Below are positions 18,500 through 26,681 of a stretch of DNA of 64,000 nucleotides, piece by piece. The stretch's first letter is position 1; every line of letters begins with the position of its first letter. The DNA comes from Isoetes taiwanensis (Eukaryota; Streptophyta; Lycopodiopsida; Isoetales; Isoetaceae): positions 1,556,968 through 1,620,967 of the forward strand of contig JAJEKV010000111.1 in NCBI GenBank assembly GCA_021234155.1, written 5' to 3'. Position numbers and translations under genes: made by a program. The notes below the pieces were generated by a model, which saw nothing but the letters and a program-made list of their open reading frames with translations, was not told where the DNA came from and searched no databases.

Positions 18500-19740
18500 T
18501 CGTCTCATGCAAGTTGCTGAAGGATGCACTCTTGCTAATGTTCACACCACCATGAGAGGTCAACAATGCAATGTTGAACTAATGCTACCAATGCCATCTT
18601 CATGCAGCCAATCTTATCCCAATATTGTTGCCAAAGTCGAGCTCTTTCATGAAGTCTCAGCCGCACTGCCCAAGGACCTCTGCACCAGTGGTTCCTGCTA
18701 ATCCCTTGGCCCATGTTCCATTGGAACTTCAGGAAGTATTCGTTAAAATTAAGGTTCTTCTCAGTTTATCCACTATTTTAAAACTCTGTCCTGCCTTGCG
18801 TAAATAGCTTTCCTTCTTGTTGGCACAGTTGGCACTTTCACATCTACTGTCCACGCCACCGTAGCCAATCAACAGGTTAATCATGTATGTACATATTGAT
18901 GGTTACAATACCATCAATTTCATCATCACAGATAAACTCCAACATCATCTTAAAATTAAACAGTTATACAGGGCTCCTTATGACATCAAATTGTCCAATG
19001 GTCACATCACGGAACCTCAAGAAATCATTTCTGCACTTACCATCAATGTTACCGATCTTAAATCGCCTTTGGAATTTGGAGTTTAGATAGCATATGAAGA
19101 TCCAGATGATTACGATATGCTGGTTGGTCGCCCGATCAGGCACCATTCTATCCAGAGAAGTGTACTTTTTGTGACCTCTAGTGTTCTTTTAGGACATGTG
19201 GTTAGCTGTCTTGCCATCACCATGGATCCTTCCAAAATCAATTGTGTGTTAAAAGCTCAGGCACCTACCAATATCAAAGAGACTAGGTCATTTACTAGAA
19301 AAGTTAATTATTATGCTACCTTCATTCCAAGTTTAGTTACTAAAGCGCATCCCATTCATAAACTCACGGGTGATGTGTCCACTTGGGCTTGGACCTCCAA
19401 GCCGAAGCTGCTTTTCAAGAATTAAAGATTCTGCTCACGCACGCCTCTGTTCTTGTACCTCCTCAATGGGATAAACCTTCTCATGTCCATATTGATGTTT
19501 CAGCCTTCGCCATTGGTGTTGTTATAACTCAGGAATATGCATCACATCAAGATACACCCATCAGATTTGCCTGTTGTAAACTCAACACCGCTGGAAAACA
19601 TTACTCGGCTATAGAGCATGAGGCCGTGGAACTCATCTTCTGTGTGCGACATTTTAGACATTATCTCCTAGGAAAAGGTAACTGGAGCGTTAACACGGAA
19701 CAGAAGCACAAAATGTTGGTTATTTATATCCCCCTGTCCT
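18500..19740 (+). pseudogene. Ty3/gypsy protease, RT end and RNase H relic
   Basis: Protease-region landmarks repeat those at 8150-8925 (KLCPALRK, IDGYNTINF, APYDIKLSNGH). The catalytic core of RT is missing: about 19100-19160 jumps from DDYDMLVGRPI to the RT thumb (VLLGHVVS, MDPSKINCVLKAQAPTNIKE, FTRKVNYYATFIPS). RNase H follows in the next frame: AFQELKILLTHASVLVPPQW, HVHIDVSAFAIGVVITQE, KLNTAGKHYSAIEHEAVELI and RHFRHYLLG. The order is that of Ty3/gypsy elements. The RT deletion, stops and a frame change at about 19420 show it is dead. Confidence 0.8.
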
Positions 19741-19779
19741 TTTCTAACCTTAGTTAACATTCTTGCAATCTGAAATTTG

Positions 19780-20395
19780 AAAATTTTCGGCGAATATTCA
19801 CTCTTAGACACATCATTAGATTGGCATGAAAGGCTCGAGCATTTGAATTACACCCTCCTCTAGCACATGCAAACACATGGCTCCAGTAAAACGTCTGCCA
19901 AAGTTACACAAACCACATATCCTTTGTGATGCATGCGCGTTGCGCAAGTTAAAGAGGAAGCCATATTGAAAGGAGAGAGTGAAACGTGTGACAACACGAC
20001 TAGAGTTGCTGCATCTTGATCTGTACAGGCTAAGTATTTTATGTTGATCGTTGATTATTTCAGTTGCAAAAATTGGGTATTTTTCTTGCAGCACAAATCC
20101 GAAATTTTTAATACTTCATCAAATGGAAAACTGAGGTTGAAAGGCAAATAGAATGCTACAAACCCTAAGGACTGATCAAGGCAAGAAGTTTCTCAATACT
20201 AAGTTTCGCATTTTTTTGCAAGACGTTGGCATTCATCACCTTAGAACTAAGCATAGGTTATGAGCACCAGCAAAATGGCATGGGCGAACGGAAGAATCAG
20301 ACCATGCTAGACTGTGCTCAAGCCATGCTTAACAGACTGAAATTGATCGGCCGCGATTTAACATCTTGCATCATCCATTATTTGGTAGAGCCTGC
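19780..20395 (+). pseudogene. Ty1/copia-type integrase relic
   Basis: Frames on the plus strand reproduce the copia integrase order. A zinc-binding-like end comes first (KPHILCDACALRKLKRKPY, about 19907-19965). Next is the first catalytic Asp segment (KYFMLIVDYFSCKNWVFFL, about 20030-20090), then TLRTDQGKKFLNTKF around the second Asp (20165-20205). Last is a QQNGMGERKNQTMLDCAQAML segment with the catalytic Glu (20270-20330). Pieces lie in different frames with stops. It follows a gypsy-type RNase H, which is the wrong order for either superfamily, so this is a nested or recombinant remnant. Confidence 0.75.
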
Positions 20396-21937
20396 AAGGC
20401 TTTTATTGGTGTTGCAGAGCGGTCGCGATGTGCTGGAGTCGGTGCAGTGATAAAAAAGAGCACCTGAAATAGGTTTTAAACTGGAATGTGAATTATTAGC
20501 AGACCGCGATCATCAAAACATATATAATACAGTTACTTTTAAATTTACTCATATATAATTTTATAGTTTGGATTGTTTCTTTTGTGTACGTAAGAATAGG
20601 TTTCTAATAAGTTGTGTTTTATTTCAGGTTATCAGAAACGGCTAGCCTATTACATGGTTTCTAGGTTTGAGATTCGAGGGCATGCAGATCTCCATGGAGT
20701 TCTTGATTGTGATGTGAGTCTGTGTAGCGAAGAGTATGGAGATGCTGTCATGTACAGAGAGCAGGTTTCAAAGAATTGGCACAGCGGTTGATGATTCTCA
20801 TTTCCGCCCGCCGATTTGGAGTTATGAACAGGACTTACGATCGACACATACAAGCAATATATTAGGCATTTGCCAGAGAAGGATAATGATCGGCTACGGG
20901 CTTTTTTCCTGCAAACAATTTGTAATTCAAGATATAACGTAAGTTTTCTAACTTTATTGTATTTCTATTTTTTATTTTTATTTTTTAATAATAGTCTTCA
21001 ATATTTGTGTTATTGCAGGCATGATCAGAAGGTACCAATGGGTGTCAACAAAATTCGTACTTGGTTGCAGTGTATGGGCAGTTTGGTAAGTGATGTGGAA
21101 ATAACAAACAAGAGTGGTCGTGTGACACTGGTTTCGAGGTTATCAATGGCTGGAGTTCCACTTGAAATCGGGATGCTGATAACTGGTCATCGAAATGTCA
21201 ATTCATATAAAAAGTAAGCGATTTTGTTTTATTTGACTATTTGTTTGCTTTTATGTACCTTGTTAACTGGATTTTGTGTATTCTAGGTATGACAAAACTA
21301 AAGAAATGCAGGTTGATGCTGCAATGAATATTCTAGGATGTCCCTATAACGATGACGATTCATTGAAGGTTTACAGTGATGTTCTTCAGCAGCAAAAAAC
21401 TAAGAAGAGTGCAATGATGACAACATTTGATGTTGGAGCAAGTTCTAGTAGTGAGAAAGTTGGGTAGGCGACTCTTGATGACAAGAAATAAAAAGTTGCA
21501 ACTGAGGTAGGTTTCTGTGTTTTAGTTTAATTATTTAGTTACTTTCTGTGTTTTAGTTTATTTATTTACTTTAGTAACTTTTCTTTATTTGCAGGTTCCG
21601 ATTGTTCTTCCTGATGGTTCAGTTACTCAAGTTACTGAAGGTGCTACTAAAGATGTTGTCGCAGTTGAAGATGATATTGCTGTGAATTTTGGAAGTGTGG
21701 CTGTGACAAATTTGACGCAACTTGATATCACTAACAATGTCTGGGAGAAGTGTCTTCAATCTTGTCCTGAGTTGGAAGGTGGGAGTTATATTAAAAACTC
21801 GACAATGAGTAATAGTGGTGGACAATTGTTCATGGCAGCGACAAATAAAAATTGTGTCTTTCTTTCTATTTCATTATGTAATCCTTCGCATGCTAGAGCA
21901 ATAATAAAGAACATGTTCGCTGCTATACCAAAGGTGC

Positions 21938-22735
21938 TGATACGATTCATTATTTATGGGAAGCTAAACTACTGATACAACAACATCTTATTTGAAGATC
22001 AAGATCCAAGAACATCATATATCACAGACCAATACATTGATGAGCACGTTTAACCACCCAACCGGGTCCACAGGGTTATGGCAATGCAACTAGCTCAGCA
22101 AACATCTGGCTACTCCGCATAGATCATGAGCAAATAATATCTGGCTAGTTTGCGTAGACCATTGGGCAAAGACTATATCTGGCTTATTGGCCCTCCAGGC
22201 TAGTATAGCTACTCCACGTAGCCACACATCATAAAAGCAATTGCAGTTCTGAGAAGTCGCTATGGCAGTAATTTGTAACCCTCTGTCACCTTTTCGGCCA
22301 TTACTCCCTCATAGGATATATGCTATCCCAATTCGGAAACTAGACTCCGAACCGGTTCCAACGAGGTAAAGATTGCTGCAATCCGACCTCTGGTTGCCGA
22401 GATATGTCCAACTGAAGTTTCGGTTTTATTTATAGACCTCTCTTGCGACTTCAGCCCTTTTTTTTAGCATGCAGTTGCCTTTTTCTCAAAATATCTCTCT
22501 GCGTTTAATTAGATTATATGACTTATCATATGGATATTATCTATGGCCTTTTTGTGCAAAATAGTCTGCCCCTTTTGCTTGATCATTGATTCCCCTTGAT
22601 ATCTCTCCAACCAATGGTTCTCGACCCCATCCTAGATATTACAACCTTGCCATAGTTCTACAACTTTGCTATATTTTGCCATGCCCCATAACCCTGGCGC
22701 CGTGGACCACTCCCCCGTGCTATGACTCTGTATCA
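21938..22735 (-). repeat. 3' LTR of the non-autonomous element (798 bp)
   Basis: Nearly identical to 24133-24939, with the same TGATAC...GTATCA ends. Small differences between the LTRs indicate some age since insertion. Confidence 0.9.
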
Positions 22736-22752
22736 GTCCATCCCTTCTCAAA
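22736..22752 (-). other. Polypurine tract of the non-autonomous element
   Basis: On the minus strand the purine-rich GAGAAGGGATGGAC directly precedes the TGATAC start of the 3' LTR, the expected place for plus-strand priming. Confidence 0.6.
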
Positions 22753-22899
22753 AAGAGATCGTCCGCGATCGTCCAAGCTCGCTCTAATTTGGGCCATCCC
22801 TTCTCAAAGCGATTGTCCCATGTTCAACGTACACCATGTTCAACGTACACCTGGGAGTTCCTAGACCCTGCGAACTCAAGAATGGTTATATAAGTTATT

Positions 22900-23207
22900 G
22901 TACTTCCACAGTACCTTATACCCATTGGAACCTCCACGCCCCTATTCTTTTAATCCCTGCAAAACTCTAAAAGCAGTTATGGATATCCGCGTACTTCCGC
23001 AGTACGATATATCCTTGTACCTCCGCGGTACATTATTATCTTTCGTACCTCCGCGGTACTACTTGATTGTATCTCCACAATACAGTATCTCCACGATACA
23101 GTATCTCCACGATACAGTATCTCCACGATACCAAACTATTGTATCTCCGTGATACGTTATTATTTTTCGTACCTCCGCGGTACTACTTAATTGTATCTCC
23201 GCGATAC
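22900..23207. repeat. Array of eleven covarying 15-nt hairpins
   Basis: Units begin at 22900, 22991, 23017, 23045, 23069, 23085, 23101, 23117, 23141, 23169 and 23193. Each has a 5-base stem, a loop TCCGC, TCCAC or TCCGT, and the complementary stem. Stems occur as GTACT/AGTAC, GTACC/GGTAC and GTATC/GATAC, so changes on one arm are matched on the other (one unit has a single mismatch). The array lies in the non-coding interior of the LTR element. Some units are direct 16-bp tandem repeats (23085-23131), the others are irregularly spaced. Confidence 0.85.
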
Positions 23208-23225
23208 AGATGCAATTTTTGTCAG

Positions 23226-23385
23226 GCCTATTGTGTTGCAACCACAATTATCGCTCTTTAAAAATATACATCATGCACTCTTGTTCAAGCCTATTGTGCT
23301 GCAGACCCAATTACTGATCTACCAAGAGGCATTCACAATTAGTGCACCATGTTCAGGCCTATTACGTTGCAATCGTAATTACCAA
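23226..23385. repeat. Three-unit hairpin repeat of about 65-bp period
   Basis: Three copies of a unit containing a 6-base stem around a TTGCAA-type loop, at 23230-23248, 23293-23311 and 23361-23379, each preceded by CA.GCCT. The first has ATTGTG/CACAAT and the third ATTACG/CGTAAT, a double compensatory change. The middle copy is less well paired. Confidence 0.7.
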
Positions 23386-24118
23386 TCCACCATGGGTACA
23401 CACAAGAAATAAATTCTTATTCTCTATTCCGCATAAAGAAAATCAACTTACGAACTTTACCCATAAGTCTGTCCCATAGGAAATAATTTGAGATTCCGCA
23501 TCCAAATTTTAGCATCCATATCCTTGATAGCTTGTCCGTAAAGTTCCTTCCCAACGCTTATCACTAAGCAAACCTGCAAACAAGGTCAAGTGTTAAGATG
23601 ACTTCCAAAGTCAAATATTTACACCACGGCCAACCGGCCTCTCAGATCACCACGATCTGACTCCGCAATCCAAAACAGGATGCTTTTACTTATTCCATAA
23701 TCCCCCAAAGGATCGTAGAAATTTCCTCCAACCATCCGAACTCGTTCTCCACAACTCGGTCCCATATGCTTCGAGCATTCTCCAAGAAAGCACCGAATTT
23801 TATCTGCTACTCATGCCCCAGCTTCACTTGCAGCAGTAGTCGTCAAATCCTCCTTACTTGGATGCCACGCTCCAAGGATTCGCCAAGGATTCGCCAAGGA
23901 TTCGCCACTGCACTCATATACTTAGCCCCAACACACTTTTTGACGAAGTTCAACCCAACTGTACTTGCATCACAAACTTGCAAGATTCTTGGTGCGTCGC
24001 AGCCTTAGAGTATAATAACACTACTAGTTCCGTCTTTTTTGATTCAAATCAGAAGTAAGAATTCAAATCCCGGTGATGTTTCCATAGCCCATAGATTCCC
24101 AGAAGAATCGTAACCTCC

Positions 24119-24130
24119 GCTCTGATACCA
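24119..24130 (-). other. Primer-binding site, initiator Met tRNA
   Basis: Read on the minus strand, the 5' LTR end is followed by a 2-base spacer and TGGTATCAGAGC, the classic plant primer site complementary to the 3' end of tRNA-iMet. It fixes the element's orientation. Confidence 0.9.
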
Positions 24131-24132
24131 CT

Positions 24133-24939
24133 TGATACGATTCATTATTTATGGGAAGCTAAACTACTGATACAATAGCATCTTATTTGAAGATCAAGAT
24201 CCAAGAACATCATATATATCACAGACCAATACATTGATGAGCACGTTTAACCACCCAACCGGGTCCACAGGGTTATGGCAATGCAACTAGCTCAGCAAAC
24301 ATTATCTGGCTACTCCGCGTAGATCATGAGCAAACAATATCTGGCTAGTCTGCGTAGACCATTGGGCAAAGACTATATCTGGCTTATTGGCCCTCCAGGC
24401 TAGTATAGCTACTCCACGTAGCCACACATCATAAAAGCAATTGCAGTTCTGAGAAATCGCTATGGCAGTAATTTGTAACCCCCTGTCACTTTTTCGGCCA
24501 TTACTCCCTCATACGGATGAACTAGGATATATGCTACCCCAACTCGGAAACTAGACTCCGAGCCGGTTCCAACGAGGTAAAGATCGCTGCAATCCGACCT
24601 CTGTTTACCGTCCAACTGAAGTTTCGGTTCTATTTATAGACCTCTCTTGCGACTTCAGCCCTTTTTTTTAGCATGCAGTTGCCTTTTTCTCAAAATATCT
24701 CTCTGCCTTTAATTAGATTATATGACTTATCATATGGATATTATCTATGGCCTTTTTGTACAAAATAGTCCGCCCCTTTTGCTTGATCATTGATTCCCCT
24801 TGATATCTCTCCAACCAATGGTTCTCGACCCCATCCTAGATATTACAACCTTGCCATAGTTCTACAACTTTGCCATATTTTGCCATGCCCCATAACCCTG
24901 GCGCCGTGGACCACTCCCCCGTGCTATGACTCCGTATCA
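24133..24939 (-). repeat. 5' LTR of the non-autonomous element (807 bp)
   Basis: On the plus strand it starts TGATACGATTCATT and ends CCGTATCA. The short inverted termini TGATAC/GTATCA are intact. It differs from the other LTR by a few substitutions and small indels, such as an extra GGATGAACTA-like insertion near 24515. Three short stem-loops of CTAC-TCCGC-GTAG type lie near 24308-24425. Confidence 0.9.
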
Positions 24940-24949
24940 GGTGCCTTGA

Positions 24950-25300
24950 TTTCTGATATAAAAAATCTGAACTTTAGTTGCTGATGTGAACTGATCTGAT
25001 CTGATAACTTTCATATCACATTGGAATTTTGGTTTTCATATGATGGAAGTGATCCATTTTGGAAATGTAACTCTTATTTTGAAATTTAAAACAATGTCTC
25101 TTCTATATTTGCTTCAATTTTAAATTTGCTTTTGAACTCTGTCTGATGTATTGGTTGATCCATTTTGGAAGTGATCCATTTTGGAAATGTAACTGTTGAT
25201 TTCTTATTTGAAATAGTGAACTATCATGTTCATGTTCTATAATGAACTTCTGCATCATGTTCTATAATGAACTTCTATATCATGAACCATGATAATTTTT
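24950..25300. repeat. 3' flank of the recombinase relic with small duplications
   Basis: GTGATCCATTTTGGAAATGTAACT occurs twice about 123 bp apart (from about 25049 and 25172), and CATGTTCTATAATGAACTTCT twice in tandem near 25229-25275. Probably untranslated or element-end sequence of the Crypton-like gene. No coding is seen. Confidence 0.5.
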
Positions 25301-26681
25301 GTATAGTTTCTATATCATGGTGTATAATGGGAGATGGCGGTGCCACCAGAGTGCCGCCAGAAATTCTCAATGATAAATCTCCTAAAAATTACCTGAAAAC
25401 AACCTAAGCCCTAATCTCAAGTAATTTTAAGGTCACGTTGGTTATGTAATATAAATTTGAAGTCGAATTAGGGAACTAGATAATATAATTTTTGCAAAGA
25501 GTCAACAAAAGTGGTTGATATCACATGCTTAAGCCACGTGAAAACTATTCAACTTTACAGAAAAAGAAAGAAAAAAAGAAACTAGAAACAAAAAAATCCT
25601 TACTTTTACTGAGTGTTTTAGCTCTAAGCCAATCTCCACCTTCCAAAGCGAATATTTTTAGGCCACACAAGATATAAGATATTGAATTTGACTTTATCTG
25701 TGAATGCATAGGCATGGAGAGATCTCTTGCATCTCCTCCTTGCAATCAACATTACATTTATCCATTATTAAAATGACAGTGCTTAGCCATCATACAGCCA
25801 AGTTGTCAAAAGACAATACTGCATAGAAATATAATCATAAATGACACAACTAGGGACCTTTCCTGAAAATTAGTACGACTGCAACCATGAAGATGTTGCC
25901 TAAGTAGTTATTTTTATTTTTTTTGAAGAATATAAGAATATATTAAACCACTAGAATGCGATCAAGTACAATGATAAGTGTGGTGCCTAAGTAGTTATTC
26001 AATATATCACCTTGTGCATATTGCATACATTAATATTAGTCCAATTAAAAACCGTCTGTATTAACTTAAATAGGAAAAAGAAGTTACTTTATTGCCTGAG
26101 ATGTTCTGCAGATTCTAATTATATCATCTCAAGCCAAAACCGGCCTACATTGTCTTGAATTTATAGGTAGTCAAACATTCATTGGAAGTGCTTTGTGTGA
26201 CTACCTATGCTGCCACAATGCATCAATCTACCTTACGAGGCATTCGAATATTTTTTCGATTGCCCTATTAATAGACTCAACACTTAGTAGCATCAATTAG
26301 TTATCTCAAAAAATTTGAAGCACTCAATCATGGAGGTTGGAGCCACAGCCATGACACACCTTTAATTCCACTAGAACAGAGATTTTGGCACTATTCTTTC
26401 ATTGTCAACAACTCACACGAAATAAATCTTTTTTCCCACTGGCCCTTTTGGCAATACTCGTTGCCAAGTCGTCCTCGACCAATCACATTGTTCTCCCTGC
26501 GAATACTCTGACATATGGGCATCCCTTGAGTTTAGCTTGTACCTAAAACACGTAAGATCTTTTTTTACTTATGCAACAACAAAACCAGAAACTAGAAACT
26601 ACATAACATACTTAGGAAGTTCCAAACTTTGACAACAAATAAAAGACAAATAGATAGCATCTGCATTTAAGGTAACACCAT
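25301..26681. other. No gene recognised; one likely retroposon tail
   Basis: A T-rich run at 25910-25923 followed by GAAGAATATAAGAATATATTAAACC resembles the reversed 3' end of a poly(A)-tailed plant LINE, with its body presumably truncated. Otherwise AT-rich anonymous sequence. Confidence 0.35.

Follow-up and report, generated by a model that had tools for sequence, protein, structure and literature searches.

Comparative analyses suggest, with high probability, that the tyrosine recombinase (YR) exons in a 64,000-nucleotide stretch of the Isoetes taiwanensis genome (contig JAJEKV010000111.1; hereafter the window) belong to a DNA transposon family that encodes a YR and no other recognisable product, the YR being the presumed agent of excision and insertion. 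The window copy is one member of this large and formerly active family, which is dispersed in the 1.66-Gb genome of this lycophyte; SBP genes, a plant family, are present in the same genome. The family is a Crypton-like YR transposon that differs from the described Cryptons.

A fossil copy in the window

GT-AG introns separate the four exons lying between 20628 and 21937 (Table 1), which carry the motifs IRGH, SKN, PMGVN, NKSGR, TGHR and YD in the order expected for a YR; together they code for its C-terminal half. This exon-intron layout was recognised in the first-pass annotation, and it was borne out in the sequence. The interval given there for the gene, 20628-24949, includes these exons, but it also takes in an unrelated LTR element of 3.0 kb, and the 3' end of the transposon copy is located at 25446. 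The window copy is dead because of a frameshift, stops, the LTR insertion and the missing 5' part, and is a fossil that was struck by the LTR element afterwards. Homology starts at 20331-20336 with 10 of the 17 other loci compared; with the remaining seven it begins further in, partly because those loci themselves end there.

Table 1 Features of the decayed YR transposon copy and its nested LTR element, in window positions
Feature	Position	Strand	Basis
YR transposon remains, subfamily W, dead and 5'-truncated	20331..25446	+	homology to dispersed copies, common 3' end
Decayed upstream coding exon, RFNILHHPLFGRACKAFIGVAERSRCAGVGA...	20333..20431	+	tblastn with group G2 exon peptide
Exon bearing Arg I in RFEIRGH and the conserved Lys in SKN; reading frame broken around 20785 by a frameshift and stops	20628..20938	+	
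Exon with PMGVN, NKSGR (K-x-x-R) and TGHR	21019..21213	+	
Exon opening with catalytic Tyr (YDKTKEMQ); interrupted by an in-frame stop around 21466	21287..21506	+	
C-terminal exon, interrupted by LTR insertion	21595..21937	+	
Nested LTR element, unrelated to the YR transposon, inside last exon	21938..24939	.	LTR identity 94.7%
LTRs of nested element	21938-22735 and 24133-24939		
Target duplication of LTR element, GGTGC, 5 bp	21933-21937 and 24940-24944		
3' subterminal inverted repeat, G+C-rich	25336..25358	+	sequence; similar stretch in sister copies
3' terminus AAGGTCACGTTGGTTATG (other copies ...GGTTACG)	25429..25446	+	W end-pattern search

In a Pfam profile search, the spliced window copy matched Phage_integrase (PF00589) at E=0.034, but below the cut-off, and had no DUF3504 match, so that identifying a YR from it by Pfam on its own would be marginal. 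The YR identity of the window exons is nevertheless secure, because family members match YR profiles and close copies exist; the closest of these are 92-95% identical to the window copy in exon 3. A domesticated YR gene that later died, one of the origins first considered, is not supported, since the window copy is one of many mobile copies.

Recombinase profiles, conserved residues and selection

Relatives of the window copy contained intact ORFs, and significant profile matches placed the family in the tyrosine recombinase superfamily. All 11 members of the A1 alignment matched PF00589 at E<=0.1 (best 8.9e-8); the score of the first member was below the Phage_integrase cut-off, and locus L018 matched above it. 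In the A2 alignment, 23 of 34 rows matched PF00589 at E<=0.01, the other 11 including some short exons, and 26 of 34 matched a PHROG integrase at the same threshold (best E 7.9e-10). The homology to DUF3504 by which Cryptons are recognised was found in subfamily D, which scored 32.8 bits against a cut-off of 29.7 (E 8.6e-8) with exons joined by the analyst, and in two unspliced stretches that also passed the cut-off. Scores were below it in B (23.5 bits), the sister group of the window copy's subfamily, and in G2 (16.0 bits), and group A had no DUF3504 match at E<=0.1. The score of D and the Phage_integrase matches of intact A members uphold the initial proposal of a Crypton-like, DUF3504-type YR in a plant. 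A stray match to DNA_pol_B (E=0.0064, below its cut-off) was seen in one G2 ORF.

The catalytic residues were kept in nearly all alignment rows with letters at the respective positions: Arg I in 25/26, Lys in 30/30, Arg II in 30/32, His in 30/31 and Tyr in 27/27. The first H of HxxR was replaced by K in 31 of 32 such rows, giving KxxR. The KSGR box noted earlier as an unusual substitution for the HSLR-box residues is therefore real, but it is family-wide and peculiar neither to the window copy nor to its decay. A literature search on KxxR gave no paper in which all five terms used occur together.

Structural comparisons were made with an AlphaFold2 model, for which pLDDT was 38.4 from the 11-row alignment and 58.5 from a trimmed 34-row alignment. 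The 18 best Foldseek matches of the latter model were all YR chains (best E 2.3e-3, none <=0.001), the integrase of Tn1549 was among its fold matches, and VIA-align gave Z of at most 7.4; this modest model appears to resemble XerA and Cre. Human QRICH1 was rejected as a fold relative, its VIA-align values (Z 3.7, 94 aligned, rmsd 5.0) being too low. PDB sequence searches with the A profile and the D and B proteins gave no clear relative, and an integrase match of the D protein was at chance level (E=0.66). Three weak short matches were obtained in IMG/VR. A bacterial source finds no support here, because a search of GTDB genomes gave no match.

Between A lineages dN/dS was 0.10-0.15, and among A copies with dS of 0.02-0.04 it was 0.5-1.05; the sample comprised 10 of the 11 A1 members (L043 left out), and 31 of its 45 pairs were without finite dS. 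These ratios indicate that the A lineages are under long-term purifying selection and that recent copies evolve near neutrality. Such long-term purifying selection, together with the common flanks in C44/C918, L022/L023 and L112/L114, is also what a host gene family of YR ancestry, whether domesticated or ordinary, could produce if amplified by segmental duplication. That origin is extremely improbable: the near-neutral evolution of recent copies, precise ends with unrelated flanks and internal-deletion derivatives argue against it, and it is contradicted by empty sites, which had a clear extra G in 9 of 11 tested B/W insertions.

Element ends and empty sites

Genome-wide searches with end patterns found 53 sites for B, 18 for W (<=3 mismatches allowed at the 3' end; the window copy included), 14 for G2 and 155 for A, and the 5' end pattern of B/W found 55, while the reversed controls gave 0 in each case. 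An inverted repeat lies near each element end and a palindrome at the 5' end. The palindrome partner was detected in 17 of 23 copies examined; L032 was also palindromic by eye, and none was found in L031, L077, L079, L083 and L084. Among 12 fetched long B/W end pairs, a set that leaves out more distant pairs such as those on C1028, C1059, C1068 and C1078, 10 were 3.0-3.7 kb apart and two were larger. A YR exon was located on the same strand inside 10 of the 12, two of which (C44 and C918) have common flanks; the YR exon of the C919 pair had the opposite orientation, and the C901 pair had no YR row among the matches listed. Short copies of about 0.2-1.1 kb shared the same ends. The defined ends, the short derivatives and the empty sites all support the plant transposon lineage that had been put forward as one possibility.

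The long copies carry a single, intron-containing YR gene. In three full-length elements, each about 3.1 kb long (G2 L016, A L021 and B C918), the larger ORFs encoded a YR but neither reverse transcriptase (RT) nor DDE transposase, and 10 further ORFs in them gave no additional Pfam domain at E<=0.1. A DIRS/Ngaro-type retroelement whose RT was lost or is hidden would likewise combine a YR with repeats at its ends, and the available text of PMC4157794 describes DIRS-like elements as RT-encoding, with YRs and inverted repeats, and as known in Viridiplantae, e.g. Volvox. An RT ORF does adjoin the YR in L018, but the close relatives L020 and L021 have different DNA at that position, and no RT was found between the ends of the three full-length elements in the ORFs scanned. 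A retroelement origin is disfavoured because the several spliceosomal introns of the YR gene are unexpected after an RNA stage, and we regard it as highly improbable.

Comparisons of filled with empty sites showed that insertion converts X-G-Y to X-G[TAG...TTAC]G-Y. The flanks meet at one G in the empty sites of B, W and G2, and at TGT in those of A. Exactly one extra G was present at the junction in 17 of 20 aligned empty-site rows, and the other three comprised two with T or C instead of G and one ambiguous alignment. The searches used 20 of 51 and 10 of 48 matches, with 40 candidates scored of 877 and of 163, and C44 was excluded from the query for the flanks it has in common with C918. Equal 2-base flanks occurred in 3 of 26 insertions, with 3.1 expected by shuffling, which gives no target duplication beyond the shared G or TGT. 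A test for copies at different loci with short flanking duplications had been suggested at the outset; the copies are indeed dispersed, but there is no such duplication beyond G/TGT. Because the empty sites show the shared G/TGT and no other duplication, they fit insertion mediated by a recombinase, not DDE transposition.

Rolling-circle elements insert at a fixed short site without target duplication and have a hairpin at one of their ends. The same features here resemble those of a single-strand (HUH or Helitron-like) process, in which the YR would not be the mover. Helitron ends are TC...CTRR, whereas the ends here are GTAG...TTACG; inverted repeats lie at both ends, and scans of the elements gave no domain apart from the YR, so we consider such a process very improbable.

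The inverted repeats near both ends and the MITE-like short copies would also suit a DDE cut-and-paste transposon with terminal inverted repeats (TIRs) that carries the YR gene as a passenger, for which the available text of PMC3212892 offers a fungal precedent in MarCry, a DDE element carrying a YR gene, with TIRs and TA duplications. The fixed-length, variable-sequence target duplication of DDE TIR transposons was not found, as equal flanks were not in excess and the difference at empty sites was a single fixed G, or a fixed TGT in A. There was no DDE domain in the YR ORFs or in the 10 ORFs of the three full-length elements, and most fetched long end pairs enclose YR exons. These observations make a DDE passenger very unlikely.

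Relation to Cryptons and a proposed mechanism

Cryptons (CryptonF, S, A and I) were treated by Kojima and Jurka (2011, PMC3212892), whose available text lists 24 host species, all of them animals, fungi or stramenopiles, and mentions Chlamydomonas solely in the legend to a tree of Cryptons and other YRs. The Isoetes family is like Cryptons in its YR gene without RT, its DUF3504-type YR, its non-autonomous derivatives and the lack of an ordinary target duplication. We use the label "Crypton-like" because described Cryptons, according to the same portion of PMC3212892, have no TIRs, and direct repeats at their termini are either 4-6 bp long (fungal and oomycete) or missing. In contrast, both ends of the Isoetes elements lie close to inverted repeats, the 5' terminus is palindromic, and the shared bases number 1-3. 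Their KxxR also departs from the catalytic tetrad given there as R-H-R-Y, although Arg I, Arg II and Tyr are kept.

In the transposition mechanism that we propose, the YR would bind the inverted repeats beside both ends and excise the element as a circle, with a predicted junction of ...GGTTAC-G-TAGGGG... in B/W and ...CATTTTG-TATTGGGG in A. The junction G of the circle would then recombine with a G of an A+T-rich target site, and short copies could be mobilised in trans. Conjugative transposons of the Tn916/Tn1549 type likewise integrate a YR-generated circle into A+T-rich, poorly specific targets, and they have variable coupling sequences. Such sequences were not seen here, where the flanks match the empty sites right up to the G.

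A tentative and rather doubtful extension, drawn by analogy only, is that plant YR transposons recombine a folded site, as a eukaryotic counterpart of integron attC recombination. Extrusion of the 5'-terminal palindrome would bring the two inverted-repeat arms together at the crossover base, and strand exchange at a single position would be followed by resolution of the product by replication. Recombination of attC by IntI would resemble the Isoetes system in relying on a YR and a substrate folded into a hairpin, and in having what is effectively a single-position junction, and folded attC hairpins with replicative resolution are mentioned in the available parts of PMC11641012 and PMC4792948. 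Unlike the Isoetes family, integrons are bacterial and attC is recombined by a separate integrase.

No land-plant Crypton family appeared in the titles and abstract starts among the best literature matches listed, a scope outside which Repbase and most subscription papers fall, and the word "Crypton" is absent from the main texts of the I. taiwanensis and I. sinensis genome papers. As the hosts from which the available text of PMC3212892 describes YR DNA transposons are animals, fungi and stramenopiles, a multi-copy family in a vascular plant would widen their host range. Having intact ORFs, copies of low divergence, exactly defined ends and empty sites, the family would provide a defined substrate for tests of eukaryotic YR integration, and it points to Cre-like plant enzymes that choose their targets loosely. 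Because the conserved palindrome adjoins a junction of a single base, a specific mechanism can be put to the test.

The recombinase gene of the window and its relatives

Four exon blocks with plant-style introns had been proposed in the first-pass annotation, and these were borne out with the same bounds and with GT-AG introns in the sequence. The motifs Arg I (IRGH), the conserved Lys (SKN), PMGVN, NKSGR, TGHR and YD were found across the exons of this tyrosine recombinase (YR) gene. The window copy is dead: a frameshift and stops interrupt it near 20785, a further stop lies near 21466, and an LTR element is nested in it. Homology begins at 20331-20336 in 10 of the 17 other loci compared, which indicates that the window copy is without its 5' part, and the 3' limit of the homology is 25446. 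Taken singly, the spliced window translation gave only E=0.034 with Phage_integrase in the HMM check. Decayed LTR-retroelement coding fragments (18900-20330; by eye, RT- and RNase H-like peptides followed by integrase-like ones) adjoin the 5' truncation, and repeats within the nested LTR element lie at about 23015-23085 and 23139-23209.

Features of the YR copy in the window
Feature	Position	Length	Details
YR exon 1	20628-20938		GT-AG introns
YR exon 2	21019-21213		GT-AG introns
YR exon 3	21287-21506		GT-AG introns
YR exon 4	21595-21937		GT-AG introns
LTR element nested in YR copy	21938-24939	3,002 bases	GGTGC duplication; LTRs 94.7% identical

The genome searched (1,658,258,908 bases in 1110 contigs) contained at least 256 rows matching the window protein (150 scored of 1525 first-look candidates) and at least 133 matching the intact ORF of copy L018 (114 scored of 1888). 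Contamination is an unlikely source of these copies, since the contigs that carry them reach 53 Mb in length and several insertions are flanked by repeats of the same genome. SBP, a plant family, had 54 matches. The Isoetes taiwanensis assembly is described as 1658.30 Mb in 204 scaffolds and 909 contigs (PMC8566536). The copies were given the working names W (window), B (sister of W), G2 (L015-L017), C (L024, L025), D (L034, L035), and A (L018, L036-L045, and others). Two W copies, L002 (C952:10791983, plus) and L004 (C952:10794420, minus), are by eye apparently arranged tail to tail, with the junction close to their 3' ends and the terminal GTTGGTTACG absent; this inverted dimer may have arisen through the transposition pathway.

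Recombinase identity

Judged from its sequence, the family protein is a tyrosine recombinase. L018 exceeded the Phage_integrase cut-off (28.8 vs 27.1 bits), and all 11 members of A1, the alignment of intact group A ORFs, matched this profile at E<=0.1 (best 8.9e-8; the first member was below the cut-off). In A2, an alignment of 34 rows of which 28 are group A, 23 rows matched Phage_integrase at E<=0.01 and 26 matched a PHROG integrase (best 7.9e-10). DUF3504 was above the cut-off in D (8.6e-8, on manually joined exons) and in two unspliced genome stretches, and below it in B (6.5e-5) and G2 (0.013). Among the A2 rows with letters, the catalytic residues were kept at Arg I (25/26), Lys (30/30), Arg II (30/32), His (30/31), and Tyr (27/27). 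The KSGR substitution reported earlier for the window is present and is a family trait, since 31 of 32 such rows have K as the first residue of HxxR. As KxxR is conserved under selection, we infer that it is compatible with recombinase activity; Lys occurs at this position in some other YRs. For a modest structure model of the catalytic domain (pLDDT 58.5), the 18 top-ranked Foldseek matches were all YR chains, including XerA, XerH, an S. aureus integrase, Cre/Tre, and the Tn1549 and integron integrases, at E 2.3e-3 to 0.75 and none at <=0.001. VIA-align gave Z 7.4 against XerA (rmsd 5.3, 158 aligned) and Z 7.0 against Cre (rmsd 5.2, 154 aligned), values that, according to the tool itself, prove little when taken alone.

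Element ends and insertion sites

In aligned W and B copies, the shared sequence stops at ...GGTTACG, with unrelated DNA beyond. Searched genome-wide at <=3 mismatches, this 3' end was found at 53 B and 18 W sites (window included), and the B/W 5' end, which begins GTAGGGGGAAA, at 55 sites at <=2 mismatches. The G2 end repeat ...GTTTACG (14 sites, <=2 mismatches) and the A end repeat ...CATTTTGT (155 sites, <=1 mismatch) were counted together with their inverted 5'-side copies; reversed controls gave 0 in every case. Within the W/B 5' end the 3' end recurs as an imperfect inverted copy, with a TATA-like box after it, the G2 inverted repeat is 26 bp (96% identity in L016, shorter in L015), and that of A is ACAAAATGGAAGTTGGGTC. 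The element 5' end itself is a palindrome beginning within the first six bases, the second arm of which was matched in 17 of 23 W/B copies and, by eye, in L032; it was present in all seven A short copies fetched. Its bases 12-15 vary among copies (TGCA, CTTT, CTTC, CCTC), and since this block is matched by a complementary block in the opposite arm (by eye; mismatch in L072), pairing is kept through compensating change. DNA fold z was -13.2 for B, -13.1 for W, -7.7 for G2, and -5.8 for A (one chosen sequence each; 0/200 shuffles as good). The order palindrome, inverted repeat, gene, inverted repeat is common to A, B/W, and G2, despite only ~26-38% identity of the A protein to those of the other groups.

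Ten of the 12 B/W long pairs fetched (5' and 3' ends of one long element) were spaced 3.0-3.7 kb, and two 6.1 and 6.7 kb. A same-strand YR exon was enclosed in 10 of the 12, among which the C44 and C918 pairs share flanks; the C919 pair had it on the opposite strand, and the C901 pair had none among the matches listed. At C919:10486549-10489749, minus-strand B-type ends surround plus-strand YR exon matches, possibly a nested or inverted gene. No Pfam domain at E<=0.1 was found in 10 ORFs outside the YR core of three full-length elements (3.1-3.2 kb). Short copies with the same B/W ends were 0.6-1.1 kb (n=15 fetched), and A short copies had ~172 bp between the inverted repeats (n=7 fetched; L112 and L114 share flanks). 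L110 and L115, A short copies at different places, have the same repeat on their 3' side (CCCTAGCATGGTAGGAAAA...), which suggests that both inserted into a single repeat family or that a longer version of the element exists. Exact A-type end repeats at C919:1075770, 1164547, 1261234, 1342203, and 1428086, all minus and spaced ~81-97 kb, resemble a large tandem segmental array in their arrangement. In the G2 5' leader (L017 1400-1820 and the same region in L015/L016) a GACGAAGTTTGGCGAA-like unit is repeated, and L017 has an expanded set of these repeats.

Flanks were compared for 27 elements (26 distinct), and position -2 was A or T in 27/27. Equal flanks were not in excess: one base 12 (9.0 shuffled), two 3 (3.1), three 2 (1.2), four 1 (0.3), five 1 (0.2), and six to eight none. 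Joined flanks of 26 insertions led to unoccupied paralogous sites for 11, and 20 such empty sites covering all 11 were fetched and aligned. In 17 of the 20 rows there was exactly one additional base, G, the rest being continuous save for scattered differences; L093 also had G in an ambiguous alignment, and L103 (T) and L106 (C) were more diverged paralogs. Counted per insertion, nine were clear, one ambiguous, and one T. Insertion thus converts X-G-Y into X-G[TAGGGG...GGTTAC]G-Y. Five empty sites were aligned for one A insertion: two give TGT as the shared bases, and the remaining three, which are more diverged, give TAT. The four empty sites of the G2 copy L015 have TG at this point; as the element has TG at its start and CG at its end, G is the base in common. 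The one empty site of L116 was compatible with a shared G but diverged.

Mode of insertion, comparison with Cryptons, and age

Read from these alignments, the elements insert precisely, sharing one to three bases with the target and duplicating nothing further, and the YR is their sole recognised gene. The YR would bind the inverted repeats and excise the element as a circle, the G of which would recombine with a target G. Since the flanks agree with the empty sites right up to the shared base, there were neither variable coupling sequences, as in Tn916, nor a shared segment of 6-8 bp, the usual length for YRs (PMC3212892). This leaves either an overlap of very few bases or one effective exchange. 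A single exchange, with the palindrome folded to bring its two arms together, would be similar to attC recombination in integrons; we consider this rather unlikely.

Kojima and Jurka (2011, PMC3212892) describe 94 Cryptons from 24 animal, fungal, and stramenopile species, with terminal direct repeats of 4-6 bp in fungal and stramenopile Cryptons and none in animal ones, without inverted repeats except in one Mariner composite, and with known non-autonomous forms. For the family as a whole, the Crypton-like reading stood as regards its mode and DUF3504-type YR homology, but not as regards R-H-R-Y, in place of which the family has KxxR, or terminal structure, as the family has inverted repeats and one to three shared bases. 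Since it departs in these two features, we do not file the family in any described group. Among the papers listed by the literature searches, which covered mainly open-access work, no land-plant Crypton was found.

Between A lineages, dN/dS was 0.10-0.15 (10 pairs; dS 1.0-3.0, so rough), compared with 0.26 in one pair with dS 0.20 and 0.5-1.05 in three low-divergence pairs (dS 0.02-0.04); 31 of 45 pairs were saturated. This is the pattern of selection acting on moving lineages, with landed copies drifting. Low dS together with intact ORFs suggests fairly recent activity, and the saturated dS values suggest that the family has been resident for long or entered several times.
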